From an uncultured Saprospiraceae bacterium (GTDB lineage Bacteria > Bacteroidota > Bacteroidia > Chitinophagales > Saprospiraceae), in assembly GCA_937923465.1 (NCBI GenBank), contig CALDUB010000069.1, forward strand, positions 1 to 41,054: a stretch of DNA of 41,054 bases, given 5' to 3'. Of this stretch, positions 14,840 to 24,191 are shown piece after piece. Position numbers and translations under genes: made by a program. The notes beneath the pieces were generated by a model. It had not been told where the DNA came from and made no database searches. It worked only from the letters and a program-made list of their open reading frames with translations. Position 1 is the first letter of the stretch, and each line of letters starts with the position of its first letter.

Positions 14840-15556
14840 ATGGGAAGAGCATTTGAATACCGCAAAGCAAGAAAGATGAAACGTTGGGCTGGTATGGCTA
14901 AAACGTTTACGAAAATCGGACGTGAAATATCTATGGCAGTAAAGGACAATGGTCCTGACCCTGACAACAATCCACGTTTGCGCGCTGCTATCCAAAACTC
15001 TAAGGCGGCAAACATGCCAAAGGCAAATGTCGAAAATGCCATTAGAAAAGCATCTGAAAAAGATTCTGCTAACTATGATGAGGTTGTCTACGAAGGCTAT
15101 GCACCTAACGGTATTGCAGTCTTAGTAGAAACAGCAACGGATAATACAACGCGTACAGTAGCCAATGTCCGCCACGTTTTTTCTAAATACGGTGGTTCAT
15201 TAGGAACACAAGGTTCGGTAGATTACATGTTTGAGCGCAAAGGTGTTTTTACCGTTGAAAAAGCAGAGCATGATATCGAAGAATTAGAATTAGAGTTGAT
15301 TGATTTTGGCTTAGAAGAAATTACAGAAGAAGACGGAGACTTGGTGTTGAAATGTGATTTTACAGATTACGGAAACTTGTCAAAAGGAATTGAGGAATTG
15401 AAACTAGAAGTAAAAGAGTCCTCTACAGAGCGTTTTCCATTACATTCTAAATCTCTAAATGACGACGAAACAGAAGCTGTAATTAAGCTTTTGGATAAAA
15501 TGGAAGAAGACGATGACGTATTAAACGTCTTTCATACCATGGATATGAGTGACTAA
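14840..15556 (+). CDS. yebC: YebC/PmpR family protein
   Basis: A 238-residue complete member of the YebC/PmpR/TACO1 family. It has the conserved N-terminal block (AKTFTKIGREISMAVKDNG, then NPRLRAAIQNSKAANMP and ENAIRKASEK), YEGYAPNGIAVLVE in domain 3 and the GSVDYMFERKG strand. Family members were first described as DNA-binding regulators and more recently as ribosome-associated factors that relieve stalling at proline-rich stretches; which applies here cannot be read from sequence. The MGRAFEYRKARKMKRW start is usual for the Bacteroidota branch. It has its own promoter (14498-14528) and terminator. Confidence 0.93.
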   Translation: MGRAFEYRKARKMKRWAGMAKTFTKIGREISMAVKDNGPDPDNNPRLRAAIQNSKAANMPKANVENAIRKASEKDSANYDEVVYEGYAPNGIAVLVETATDNTTRTVANVRHVFSKYGGSLGTQGSVDYMFERKGVFTVEKAEHDIEELELELIDFGLEEITEEDGDLVLKCDFTDYGNLSKGIEELKLEVKESSTERFPLHSKSLNDDETEAVIKLLDKMEEDDDVLNVFHTMDMSD

Positions 15557-16297: not shown

Positions 16298-16319
16298 ATT
16301 TAGCGAAAATTCGCTAAAT
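16298..16319. promoter_or_regulatory. Operator palindrome 1 upstream of the acyl-CoA dehydrogenase
   Basis: ATTTAGCGAA-AA-TTCGCTAAAT: ten-base arms are perfectly complementary about a two-base centre. Its centre is about 40 bases upstream of the -7 box at 16345. This size and symmetry are typical of sites for dimeric TetR- or GntR-type repressors. The regulator itself is not in the window. Confidence 0.65.
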
Positions 16320-16344
16320 ACTTTCATCTTCCAATTTTTGCTTT

Positions 16345-16352
16345 TATATTTG
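16345..16352 (+). promoter_or_regulatory. -7 box TATATTTG of the acyl-CoA dehydrogenase
   Basis: Exact TAnnTTTG match ending one base before operator 2. At 20 bases upstream there is TTTC rather than TTG. Transcription would start inside operator 2, near 16359, leaving a leader of about 140 bases. Confidence 0.5.
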
Positions 16353-16369
16353 TAGCGAAAATTCGCTGA
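16353..16369. promoter_or_regulatory. Operator palindrome 2, over the predicted transcription start
   Basis: TAGCGAAAATTCGCTGA repeats the core of operator 1 (AGCGAA-AA-TTCGCT) with its centre 52 bases downstream of the first. A further half site, TTAGCGA, follows at 16374-16380. A repressor bound here would cover the start of transcription. Confidence 0.65.
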
Positions 16370-16501
16370 ACACTTAGCGATACAAAATTGAACATTGATT
16401 ATTTTTAAAAATAAGAGACTTTAGTTCGCAAAAAAATATCAGGAGTTAAAAATTTAGCCTCTAATATTTAACGTTTAAAATCTCAATACAATCTCACAGC
16501 A

Positions 16502-18298
16502 ATGACTAAGATGCCAGAGCATTCTTTAAAGAAAGATGTCCTTCAAGGAGGAGAGTTTTTAATTAAAGACGAAAAAATTCGTAACGTTTTCATTCCAGAA
16601 GAACTCAATGAAGAACAGCAAATGATACGCCAAATGGTGCGTGATTTTGCAGAAGAGGTAAAGTTGGACTCTCCACACATGGACAAGCAAGTGGAGCTTT
16701 TACAAAAAGCAGGAGAGTTAGGATTATTGAGTTCTCACATCGCGGAAGAATTCGGAGGTATGCCACTGGATACCAATACGAATACGGTTATCAATGAAGA
16801 GATGGGATACATCCCAGGTGGTTTTACAACTACTTATGCTGCACACGTTGGTATTGGTACTTTGCCGATTGTCTACTTTGGTACAGAAGCGCAAAAAGCG
16901 AAATATCTTCCAGGTTTGGCAACGGGACAGTTGAAAGCATCTTACTGTTTGACTGAACCAAGTTCAGGTTCTGATGCATTGGCAGCAAAAACGACGGCTG
17001 TATTGAGCGAAGACGGAAAGTCTTACATTATCAACGGTCAAAAAATGTGGATTACGAATGCAGGTTTTGCAGACGTATTCATTGTATTTGCTAAAATCGA
17101 TGGCGAAAAATTCACGGGCTTTATTATCGAAAGAGACACTCCAGGTTTCACTTTCGGAGCAGAGGAAGCAAAATTAGGTATCAAAGGTTCTTCGACGCGT
17201 CAAGTATTCTTTGAAAACGTCACAATTCCAGTTGACAACCTATTAGGAGAAGCAGGAAAAGGACACTTGATTGCTTTCAACATCTTAAACGTTGGACGTT
17301 TCAAATTAGGTGTATTGACAATGGGCGGTAGCAAGAGTGCAGTAAAAGGTGCGACTCAATATGCTAACGAACGCGTACAATTTAAAGTGCCGATTTCTTC
17401 TTTCGGTGCTATTCAATACAAATTGGCAGAAATGGCAATCCGTACTTTCGCAACAGAAAGTACTTGTTACCGTGTCTCTGATTTGATGCAAGACAAAGAG
17501 CAGAATCTTCTTGCAGAAGGAAAAACACATACAGAAGCATTATTAGAATCTGCGGAAGAATACGCAATCGAATGTGCTATCTTGAAAGTATTGGGTTCTG
17601 AAACGGCAGATTACTGTGTGGATGAATTAGTACAAGTACATGGTGGATACGGTTTCTCTGAGGAGTACCCAGCAGCTATGGCTTACCGTGACTCTCGTAT
17701 CGGACGTATCTATGAAGGTACGAACGAAATCAACCGTATGTTGTCTGTCAACATGCTATTGAAGCGCGCGATGAAGGGTAAATTAGACATCGTAGGACCA
17801 GCATGGGAAGTGCAGAAAGAATTGGCATCAATGCCTTCTTTTGGTAGCCCAGAGGGTGTGTATGGCGAGGAGTACAAAACTGTGAAGAATTTCAAGAAAT
17901 TAGTATTAATGGTAGCTGGGGCAGCTGCTAAAATGCAAATGGAAGGTCAATTAGACTTGCGCAACGAGCAAGAAATTTTGATGAATGTAGCAGATATGAT
18001 GATTGTCACGTATAACGCAGAAAGTCTGTTGTTGCGCGTAGATAAACTACAAAACACAGCTACTAAGCCACAAAGTCAAGATGTTTACGATGCGATTTTG
18101 AAAACTTACATATTTGATGCAACAGCACAAATGGAAAAATTCTCAAAAGAAGCATTGGTATCATTTGCAGAAGGAGATTTATTGAAAACGATGCTCATGG
18201 GCTTAAAGCGTTTTGTTAAATATCCACCAACAAATGTAAAAGAAAATCGCCGTTTGATCGCTTCAAAATTAATTGAAGCAAACGGATATTGCTTGTAA
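16502..18298 (+). CDS. Acyl-CoA dehydrogenase, very-long-chain type
   Basis: 598 residues. FAD-dependent acyl-CoA dehydrogenases form the trans-2 double bond in the first step of beta-oxidation. The N-terminal helical domain is about 35-145, the signature CLTEPSSGSDA is at 149-159, WITNAGFADVF follows at 183, and the catalytic Glu is E405 in RIYEGTNEINR. A C-terminal extension of about 150 residues beyond this, longer than in medium-chain enzymes (about 380-400 in all), is the ACADVL/ACAD9-type architecture, so long acyl chains are the likely substrates. Unlike many relatives it has no thiolase or hydroxyacyl-CoA dehydrogenase beside it. The twin operators predict repression when fatty acids are absent; that is inference. 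Confidence 0.93.
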   Translation: MTKMPEHSLKKDVLQGGEFLIKDEKIRNVFIPEELNEEQQMIRQMVRDFAEEVKLDSPHMDKQVELLQKAGELGLLSSHIAEEFGGMPLDTNTNTVINEEMGYIPGGFTTTYAAHVGIGTLPIVYFGTEAQKAKYLPGLATGQLKASYCLTEPSSGSDALAAKTTAVLSEDGKSYIINGQKMWITNAGFADVFIVFAKIDGEKFTGFIIERDTPGFTFGAEEAKLGIKGSSTRQVFFENVTIPVDNLLGEAGKGHLIAFNILNVGRFKLGVLTMGGSKSAVKGATQYANERVQFKVPISSFGAIQYKLAEMAIRTFATESTCYRVSDLMQDKEQNLLAEGKTHTEALLESAEEYAIECAILKVLGSETADYCVDELVQVHGGYGFSEEYPAAMAYRDSRIGRIYEGTNEINRMLSVNMLLKRAMKGKLDIVGPAWEVQKELASMPSFGSPEGVYGEEYKTVKNFKKLVLMVAGAAAKMQMEGQLDLRNEQEILMNVADMMIVTYNAESLLLRVDKLQNTATKPQSQDVYDAILKTYIFDATAQMEKFSKEALVSFAEGDLLKTMLMGLKRFVKYPPTNVKENRRLIASKLIEANGYCL

Positions 18299-22204: not shown

Positions 22205-24025
22205 TTAGATGTCGTAGATATTAGAAATATCACTTTTGTGTTTTTCGCGAATAACACGACGTTTTAACTTCAATGTCGGCGTCAATTCGGCATCACTACC
22301 GTCACCTTTCATTGGTTCCCATTGTACTGCGAGTAATTTAAATTTCTTAATCTGCTCAATATGTGCAAATTCAGGATTGTACTCTTCACAAATACGCTGG
22401 AATTCAGCTAATACTTTTTCGTTCTTAATCGCATCGCTCATTCCTGTCCATGCGACACCATTATTCATACACCAATCTTTCAGAGCTTCCTCTGCTGGTA
22501 AAATCAAGGCACTAACGAATTTTTGCTTTTCACCAATAACCATTATTTGCTCAATCAAGAAATTCTCTTTGAAGCGGCTCTCAATAGGAGCAGGTGCTAC
22601 ATACTTACCACCCGAAGTTTTGAGTAACTCTTTCTTACGGTCAGTAATCTTCAACATGTCTGTGCCGTTGACATCGACCATTTTTCCGATATCACCCGTT
22701 TTTAACCAACGTTTACCGTCTTTTTCAAGGATAACCTCTGATGTTGCTTTTTCATTATTATGGTAGCCCATCATTATGTTATCACCCGCAGCTAAGATTT
22801 CTCCTTCGCCTGGCTTATAATTTCCGTCACTTGAGTCAATCATAATTTCGACACCCAATAATGCTGGACCAATCGCGCTCATTGTTGCCCCGCCTTTATC
22901 ATAGCGACCGATAGCAAGACCTGGCGATGACTCTGTTAGTCCATAGCCTTCACGAATAGGCACACCTGCTGCAGAGAAAACTTGTTTCATCTTAGTCGGA
23001 CAAGCGGCAGCACCCGTCAAGATACCTTTGACGTTACCGCCTAGGGCTTCGCGCCATTTGCTATAGATTAATTTATCAGCAATAGAGCGTTTGATGCCTG
23101 CCATTCCTGAGTACTCTTTGCCGTACTCATAATCTTCTGTTAGACTTAATGCCCAAAAGAATAATTTCTTTTTAGCACCTGTTAACTCGAGACCCTTATT
23201 GTATATTTTTTCGTAAACTTTTTCAAGTAGACGTGGAACCGTTGTGAAAAAATGCGGTTTAACTGCGCGTAAATCACCATCTTCTCCACCTAAATTATCT
23301 GTTCCCGTTTGTACTATTTCAAAAGAATTGAATAAGTAAGAGTACGTTGATGTACGCTCAAAGATATGACATAAAGGCAAGAAACTTAGACAAATATCAC
23401 CAGCTTTGTGTGGCATGATTTCTCTAACTGCCATTACGTTTGATAAGATATTTTTGTGAGATAACATGACACCTTTAGGGTTTCCTGTGGTACCTGAGGT
23501 GTAGATAATAGTTGCCAAGTCGTCTGTCCAAACCTTAGCTTTAGCTGCTTCTACAGCGTCAGCACCTTCATCACTCCAAAATTCTTCGTAATGTTTTACT
23601 CCTTCTGTTTTATCGAAAGAATAAATATCTATTAGTGATGGAATATTTGGACGTGCTTTGGTTACCTTATCATAAAGGTCACCATCTCCAACAACTACAT
23701 ATTTAACTTGAGAGTCATTAAAGATGTAGTCATAATCTTTTGGCGCAATGGTAGGATAAACAGGGACATTGACAACGCCAATTTGTGCCATTCCGATATC
23801 CATCATTATCCATTCTGGACGATTTTGGTAAGATATCAATGCTACTTTATCACCAGCTTGTAATCCTAGTTTTAAAAGCCCACGAGAGATTTTATTAGCT
23901 TTTTCAATTATTTCGTCCGTGCTATAGTAAATCCACTTTCCGTCTTTTTTGTGACCTAAAGATTTTTTTAGTGGATGTGTTTTTTGTTGATAGTAAATAC
24001 AATCAAATACCCTCGTTACTTCCAT
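22205..24025 (-). CDS. Long-chain acyl-CoA synthetase (AMP-forming)
   Basis: 606 residues from the ATG at 24025; the longer frame to 24058 adds eleven residues without conservation. Signature segments: ATP-binding YTSGTTGNPKG at 175-185, REGYGLTESSP at about 358-368, KTGDIG at about 442-447 and the hinge DRKKELLKTSGGKYVAP. It activates long-chain fatty acids to acyl-CoA through an acyl-adenylate. It belongs to the FadD15-like branch with the cofactor-rich FLPLCHIFER segment. Function complements the acyl-CoA dehydrogenase 4 kb away, but the TAGCGAA operator is not found upstream of this gene. Confidence 0.94.
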   Translation of the reverse strand: MEVTRVFDCIYYQQKTHPLKKSLGHKKDGKWIYYSTDEIIEKANKISRGLLKLGLQAGDKVALISYQNRPEWIMMDIGMAQIGVVNVPVYPTIAPKDYDYIFNDSQVKYVVVGDGDLYDKVTKARPNIPSLIDIYSFDKTEGVKHYEEFWSDEGADAVEAAKAKVWTDDLATIIYTSGTTGNPKGVMLSHKNILSNVMAVREIMPHKAGDICLSFLPLCHIFERTSTYSYLFNSFEIVQTGTDNLGGEDGDLRAVKPHFFTTVPRLLEKVYEKIYNKGLELTGAKKKLFFWALSLTEDYEYGKEYSGMAGIKRSIADKLIYSKWREALGGNVKGILTGAAACPTKMKQVFSAAGVPIREGYGLTESSPGLAIGRYDKGGATMSAIGPALLGVEIMIDSSDGNYKPGEGEILAAGDNIMMGYHNNEKATSEVILEKDGKRWLKTGDIGKMVDVNGTDMLKITDRKKELLKTSGGKYVAPAPIESRFKENFLIEQIMVIGEKQKFVSALILPAEEALKDWCMNNGVAWTGMSDAIKNEKVLAEFQRICEEYNPEFAHIEQIKKFKLLAVQWEPMKGDGSDAELTPTLKLKRRVIREKHKSDISNIYDI

Positions 24026-24191
24026 TTTATTTGTGAATTTAGTTAGATATGTGAGCAAACAGATACTTGGAACCTGTTTAATTTTTCGTTTGTTATTAGA
24101 AACCCAGTTTAAAAACTAATTTCTACCGCAATTTAAAAACAAATACCAAATTAAGGTAATTTAAACCAAATTATTGAGATATTATGTAAAA

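Follow-up and report, generated by a model that had tools for sequence, protein, structure and literature searches.

Two identical palindromes stand before an acyl-CoA dehydrogenase gene of an uncultured Saprospiraceae bacterium (assembly GCA_937923465.1, contig CALDUB010000069.1), raising the question of whether they are operators, which regulator would bind them and how a pair of such sites would act on the promoter between them. The window referred to below is the whole stretch of 41,054 nucleotides analysed, positions 1 to 41,054 of that contig. A sequence-only reading of this DNA had proposed a repressor pair and guessed at a fatty-acid-sensing regulator of the TetR or GntR type. The features of the locus are as follows:

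16300..16317, + strand: operator 1 (distal), TTAGCGAAAATTCGCTAA, with perfect inverted arms and its core at 16302-16315; orthologous distal operators are present in relatives
16321..16325, + strand: -33-like promoter element CTTTC, 19 bases upstream of the -7 box
16345..16352, + strand: -7 box TATATTTG (consensus TAnnTTTG), abutting operator 2
16352..16369, + strand: operator 2 (proximal), GTAGCGAAAATTCGCTGA, with its core at 16354-16367, overlapping the predicted start point; orthologous proximal operators are present in relatives
16374..16380, + strand: half site TTAGCGA, named in the sequence-only reading
16502..18298, + strand: acyl-CoA dehydrogenase of 598 aa, presumably the controlled gene (Pfam PF02771, PF02770, PF00441, PF21263)

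The 14-base cores of both operators read AGCGAA-AA-TTCGCT, are identical and lie 52 bp apart, and the two palindromes appear to bracket a promoter of the Bacteroidota type. In flavobacteria TAnnTTTG serves as the -7 box of sigma-A promoters, and in Flavobacterium it occupies -12 to -5 (PMC9723704, cited, like the two regulator papers below, from excerpts), so that the predicted +1 falls at about 16357, inside operator 2, with the centres of operators 1 and 2 at about -48 and +4.5 relative to it. The geometry originally put forward, two palindromes 52 bases apart with the TATATTTG box just before the second and operator 2 (16352-16369) over the predicted start point, is borne out by the sequence. 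The distance of about five helical turns is likewise supported, and the phasing is compatible with the suggested looping, which may occur. The half site of the same reading is present at 16374-16380 but is not conserved; because it is absent from the displayed operator regions of 12 relatives, we take it to be a chance occurrence and probably not functional. No strong operator precedes the AMP-binding acyl-CoA ligase-like gene at window 22205-24058 (- strand), 4 kb away from the target.

Regarding the question of chance, the window alone gives weak evidence: with at most 3 mismatches allowed, the 18-bp pattern is matched twice where 0.39 matches would be expected, and 6 of 100 shuffles also yield 2. 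The whole genome of this bacterium contains AGCGAANNTTCGCT exactly 15 times, against 0 occurrences of the reversed control and about 0.23 predicted by base composition, and all 15 exact sites lie outside neighbouring listed reading frames of at least 100 aa; these genome-wide counts rule out a chance palindrome. At up to 2 mismatches the 16-mer has 35 sites against 17 for the control, and therefore only strong sites are informative. It had been suggested that a true operator would recur upstream of other β-oxidation genes or a regulator gene and not at random places, and the genome scan revealed just such a distribution, the motif preceding both kinds of gene. The sites in the own genome outside the window, each exact unless stated otherwise, are:

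L038: before the gene for pyruvate dehydrogenase (PDH) E1 alpha (pdhA)
L016: before the gene for pyruvate dehydrogenase E1 beta (pdhB)
L030: before the gene for pyruvate dehydrogenase E2 (pdhC)
L032: before the gene for PEP carboxykinase (pckA)
L033 and L029: before two further acyl-CoA dehydrogenase genes
L019: before the gene for a FadH/old-yellow-enzyme-like oxidoreductase (fadH)
L031: before the gene for an Fe-S protein
L039: before the gene for a DUF4442 protein
L037: before the gene for a luciferase-like monooxygenase
L028: at a transglutaminase/acyltransferase divergent pair
L017:5043-5118: second operator pair, 62 bp apart, one partner 11/12, before the gene for a 242-aa protein without a Pfam match
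L036: 480 bp before dnaG, a less clear target
L034:3707-5194: 495-aa XRE regulator gene, with an 11/12 site (one core mismatch) 25 bp before its start

Judged from the company it keeps, the Fe-S protein presumably belongs to the electron-transfer side of β-oxidation. From its placement the motif can be read as the putative operator of a genome-wide regulon, and with sites before the genes for PDH subunits (pdhA, pdhB and pdhC each being on a separate contig) and PEP carboxykinase, this regulon is wider than β-oxidation. A search of the own assembly did not detect etfB, and for fadB it gave partial, distant matches only.

Sixteen relatives have 116 exact sites, 95 of which were fetched, those left out being 17 at the acyl-CoA dehydrogenase gene (in 12 relatives) and 4 in G170. 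Across the 16 relatives, 69 of the 95 fetched sites are located no more than 300 bp from the start of a listed fatty-acid, acyl-CoA or PDH gene, a figure that is descriptive and no test, the list having been drawn up after the targets were seen. The gene encoding a fadB-type hydroxyacyl-CoA dehydrogenase/enoyl-CoA hydratase is a target in 15 of the 16 relatives, etfB in 11 and the Fe-S protein in 9, while acyl-CoA dehydrogenases, SDR, FadH, PdhA, enoyl-CoA hydratase, fatty-acid hydroxylases and SCP2 are less frequent. The other 26 fetched sites were not assigned to a listed gene, and 3 of them lie within long reading frames. Some relatives have unexpected targets (L231, L236, L262, L279, L273, L276, L293), among them nitronate monooxygenase, a lysine-decarboxylase-like (LOG) protein, a subtilase-type protein and a GMC oxidoreductase.

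Comparison of 30 acyl-CoA dehydrogenase loci (own included), of 41 listed matches, detected operators at 13, and the conservation in orthologous promoters on which the operator reading had been staked was found to follow the candidate regulator: all 13 are among the 19 genomes that have it (own included; the other 6 have no site at this gene), while none of the 11 genomes without it has an operator. The full pair is present at 11 of the 13 operator-bearing loci. Two operators 45-75 bp apart, start to start, were detected in 132 of the 398 genomes searched from the family, presumably Saprospiraceae, while the reversed control gave 1 genome (counted by eye). Because 27 of 30 fetched pair loci lie directly before the orthologous acyl-CoA dehydrogenase gene (28 with L323 of G018, known from a separate comparison), the pair appears to be a feature of this promoter in particular; regarding the remaining fetched pairs, L322 (G410) has no assigned gene and L328 (G188) lies within another inverted repeat and has no promoter.

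The spacing of the pairs is narrowly distributed. In the 75 pairs listed, a part of those in the 132 genomes matched and with the G188 pair counted, the operators are 51-54 bp apart in 12, 57 bp in 1 and 61-65 bp in 62, with no others between 45 and 75 bp, and the two classes correspond to about 5 or 6 helical turns of 10.5 bp. The order of distal operator, CTTT-like element, 19 bases, TAnnT box, 0-5 bases and proximal operator is found in 42 of the 75, these promoters having been hand-picked by the presence of the CTTT-like element at that distance from the box, and three rows with CTTGA or CTTCA at 19 having been excluded. At one locus (G294:C510:16826-16993) four consecutive operators follow each other at 52, 51 and 52 bp, which suggests an array of several dimers.

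Regarding the regulator, the guess of a TetR or GntR protein is not supported. The only regulator gene seen directly behind an own-genome site of at least 11/12 encodes the XRE/IrrE-like protein of L034, which is of the ScfR/IsaR kind, and the scanned neighbours of own-genome sites included no TetR or GntR gene. Other candidates were tried and rejected. A regulator encoded beside the target was sought among 8 window genes scanned by Pfam, of which 3 had no match and one (window 14840-15556, + strand; Pfam Transcrip_reg), of the scanned genes the nearest on the upstream side of the acyl-CoA dehydrogenase gene, belongs to the YebC/TACO1 family of translation factors and is presumably not the regulator. 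A LysR gene (L021) is separated from an 11/12 site by about 750 bp and an intervening gene, and a supposed WYL regulator near a 10/12 site (L023) is a methyltransferase by Pfam.

The link between motif and XRE protein comes from three directions. First, a site of at least 10/12 was detected within 300 bp upstream of 44 of 77 regulator orthologs (77 of 80 upstream regions were used, 3 being too short) against 0 of 77 reversed controls, no such site being present within that distance in the other 33; in 29 of the 44 it lies 22-25 bp before the start. Within 551,244 bases around the 80 orthologs, 37 of 39 sites of at least 11/12 are in the stretches upstream of the orthologs. In other families, at least 10 of 35 regulator-bearing genomes have an exact site 55-200 bp before the regulator match, and the site persists before regulators of 38-48% identity. 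The XRE regulator would, on the evidence of these upstream sites, control its own gene. The recurring neighbours of the orthologs resemble, as far as we would judge by sequence, MutS-type and dipeptidyl-peptidase-type proteins, and the neighbourhood is therefore uninformative on function.

Second, motif and regulator occur together. In 149 genomes of the order, the exact motif is present in 40 of 44 genomes with the regulator against 14 of 105 without it, and by genus in 20 of 23 against 11 of 59, counts that come from related genomes and not from independent trials, so that P values overstate them. The reversed control, counted by eye, was found in 11 of the 44 and 13 of the 105, and the rate of the motif in regulator-free genomes is thus at chance level. 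Four regulator-bearing genomes (G036, G065, G077, G133) have no exact motif. In family genomes typed for both, the operator pair is present in 17 of 22 with the regulator and in none of 20 without.

Third, by every family feature that could be tested, the regulator is a member of the ScfR/IsaR (RamB/PrpR) acyl-CoA regulators. The N-terminal XRE-type HTH (PF01381, 49.8 bits, residues 16-70) stands beside an IrrE-like stretch in Pfam; for the AlphaFold2 model (pLDDT 85) the best Foldseek match was 6cz6 (E 3.8e-12), and VIA gave MtPrpR of Mycobacterium tuberculosis as the best fold match (Z 24.7 over 296 residues), followed by PprI/IrrE (14.0). Outside the HTH there is a profile match to PrpR (E 8.5e-4). 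Residues C369, C459, C462 and C467 are invariant in all 51 aligned sequences, the last three forming C-X2-C-X4-C, and C369 would equal Cys363 of MtPrpR, judged by position and not by residue alignment. This arrangement, with a further cluster cysteine, is the signature of iron-sulfur acyl-CoA regulators (PMC6765138), and binding of a CoA thioester and of a [4Fe4S] cluster is predicted for the regulator from its family. The DNA site also has the ScfR form of two near-identical boxes: each 18-bp operator is built from a pair of TTWGCGAA-like octamers in inverted orientation, with TGCGAA in variants, among them the site before the regulator gene itself, these octamers being related to the element TTTGC(A/G)AA of MtPrpR/MtRamB (PMC6765138). 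The regulator is not a RamB equivalog, since the NCBIfam RamB model NF038139, by name an acetate metabolism regulator, matches it weakly over the whole protein, with 51.8 bits against a cut-off of 700; run on four proteins, own included, this model matched 3 at E of 1e-10 or below, all under 54 bits.

Compared with MtPrpR, the prototype of the ScfR/IsaR regulators, which is a tetramer and binds CoA derivatives (PMC6765138), the protein has a like predicted fold, with N-terminal XRE HTH, IrrE-like middle and the further Cys plus C-X2-C-X4-C; the half sites are close and the control of acyl-CoA metabolism is shared, while identity in the structural alignment is 17-18%. MtPrpR controls the adjacent methylcitrate cycle via a 17-bp octamer pair (PMC6765138), in contrast to the 18-bp inverted palindrome and the dispersed β-oxidation, PDH and PEP carboxykinase regulon found here. 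RamB of Paracoccus denitrificans, also an ScfR regulator with two DNA boxes near the promoter, forms a tetramer, which is converted to dimers by CoA esters, and acts as repressor and activator; in the model put forward for it, the promoter is blocked by the tetramer and activated by the dimer (PMC10370305). Its boxes have an 18-bp spacer and its target, the glyoxylate-cycle operon, adjoins ramB (PMC10370305), whereas here the operators are 51-54 or 61-65 bp apart and bracket the promoter, and the regulator gene is unlinked. In the excerpts of PMC6765138 and PMC10370305, neither this operator form nor a bracketing pair of two spacing classes nor a β-oxidation/PDH regulon is described. Among the matches listed from the open-licence literature, weak evidence of absence, there was no paper on a fatty-acid degradation regulator for this part of the Bacteroidota.

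From the computed motif, regulon, conservation, spacing, co-occurrence, autoregulatory site and family fold, we consider it quite likely that the pair is a promoter-bracketing operator pair for an acyl-CoA-responsive ScfR/IsaR regulator (L034:3707-5194), which would repress as a tetramer and have a dispersed regulon. The XRE protein would bind the motif with one dimer per 18-bp operator, and two dimers on the same face of the DNA, 5 or 6 turns apart, would make up a tetramer holding both operators. With the -33/-7 promoter and the start point covered by this tetramer, the acyl-CoA dehydrogenase gene would be repressed by default, until a short-chain acyl-CoA or CoA, the presumed ligand, changed the oligomeric state or the affinity and the promoter opened. 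Via single operators, the same regulator may coordinate β-oxidation (fadB, etfB, the Fe-S electron-transfer protein, other acyl-CoA dehydrogenases, fadH), and may also act on acetyl-CoA and gluconeogenic genes (pdhA, pdhB, pdhC, pckA) and on its own gene. A tetramer-closed promoter is favoured because same-face bracketing palindromes suit a tetramer like that of MtPrpR or RamB (PMC6765138, PMC10370305).

The position of the operator at other promoters bears on the sign of this control. Each target has its own arrangement, which recurs from genome to genome: of 15 fadB loci, 10 have the operator immediately behind the -7 box, and of 11 etfB loci, 9 have it about 30 bp before the box and clear of the start, these position classes having been recognised after a first count in which the box ended 0-6 bp before the site in 4 of 85 rows and in 0 at +12. 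Loci with the etfB arrangement include L206, L226, L228, L240, L245, L271 and L285. At several further targets the operator overlaps the -7 box, and at own pdhA, the own L033 acyl-CoA dehydrogenase gene and the proximal site of the window the box starts 9 bases before the core. The latter arrangement, together with that of fadB, supports a steric repression at these targets, while the etfB arrangement would suit activation as well as repression; the difference between etfB and fadB is hinting at opposite or two-way control.

The same ScfR-type regulator might therefore be a dual switch, repressing from operator 2 and activating from operator 1 (centre near -48 or -59), with the latter phased to RNA polymerase and not to operator 2. 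Among the hand-picked promoters, the 35 of the 6-turn class have a standard deviation of 0.51 bp for the stretch between distal operator and -7 box, tighter than the 0.77 bp between the operators, so that polymerase contact is as good a cause of the phasing as operator-operator contact, although the two spreads, 0.5 and 0.8 bp, are close and the rows were selected for a clear promoter. Single operators also recur near the distal position, the -7 box lying 43-46 bases after the site start in 15 site-gene rows (9 of them etfB), and activation as well as repression is reported for RamB of Paracoccus (PMC10370305). Set against this is the repressor position seen at most fadB loci, at own pdhA and at the own L033 gene, and we hold the dual switch to be a serious candidate that falls somewhat short of an even chance.

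In the proposal of a repressing tetramer, as in the dual switch, it is the XRE protein that binds the motif. Another regulator, for instance of the TetR or GntR family, might do so instead and have the XRE gene merely as a target, since a site before a regulator gene shows only that the motif controls that gene. There is precedent in other phyla: FadR (GntR) and PsrA (TetR) are the β-oxidation repressors of Proteobacteria and have fatty-acid degradation regulons with operators at promoters, their protein families and operator sequences differing from the regulator and motif found here. This reading is rather improbable, however, given that nearly all strong sites around the 80 orthologs lie just upstream of the XRE regulator, that the site is kept before its divergent homologs in other families and that motif and regulator co-occur; moreover, the half site resembles that of MtPrpR/MtRamB, TTTGC(A/G)AA (PMC6765138), and the family of the XRE protein acts on the same kind of metabolism.

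That the palindromes are a dispersed repeat or RNA hairpin element near metabolic genes by accident, as 5 exact copies of AGCGAAACTTCGCT in G055 without a regulator match might suggest, is very improbable and is rejected as a general reading which only G055 fits, the flanks beyond 14-18 bp differing between sites, the placement being mostly intergenic, the promoter-relative position being kept at the acyl-CoA dehydrogenase gene, fadB and etfB, and the spacings falling into two narrow classes. In G055, which is of the same family, the copies are found on contigs C4, C8, C10 and C28, with two in L290, and are probably a dispersed repeat mimicking the operator.

Motif, candidate regulator, target list and promoter geometry are tied together by the analysis and can be tested jointly. 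The proposed role of the XRE protein would add a β-oxidation/PDH regulon to the acetate and propionate assimilation under ScfR/IsaR control, and the evolutionary record of allowed spacings makes tetramer bridging in the ScfR/IsaR family testable. More speculatively, and on balance unlikely in this full form, Saprospiraceae and their relatives may have a global acyl-CoA regulon with an iron-sulfur ScfR-type protein in the place of FadR, in which the two operators of one gatekeeper acyl-CoA dehydrogenase promoter would be fixed a whole number of helical turns apart, a tetramer would clamp that promoter, an acyl-CoA would split the tetramer into dimers and the upstream dimer would activate, a metabolite-driven switch that could be read from spacing alone.
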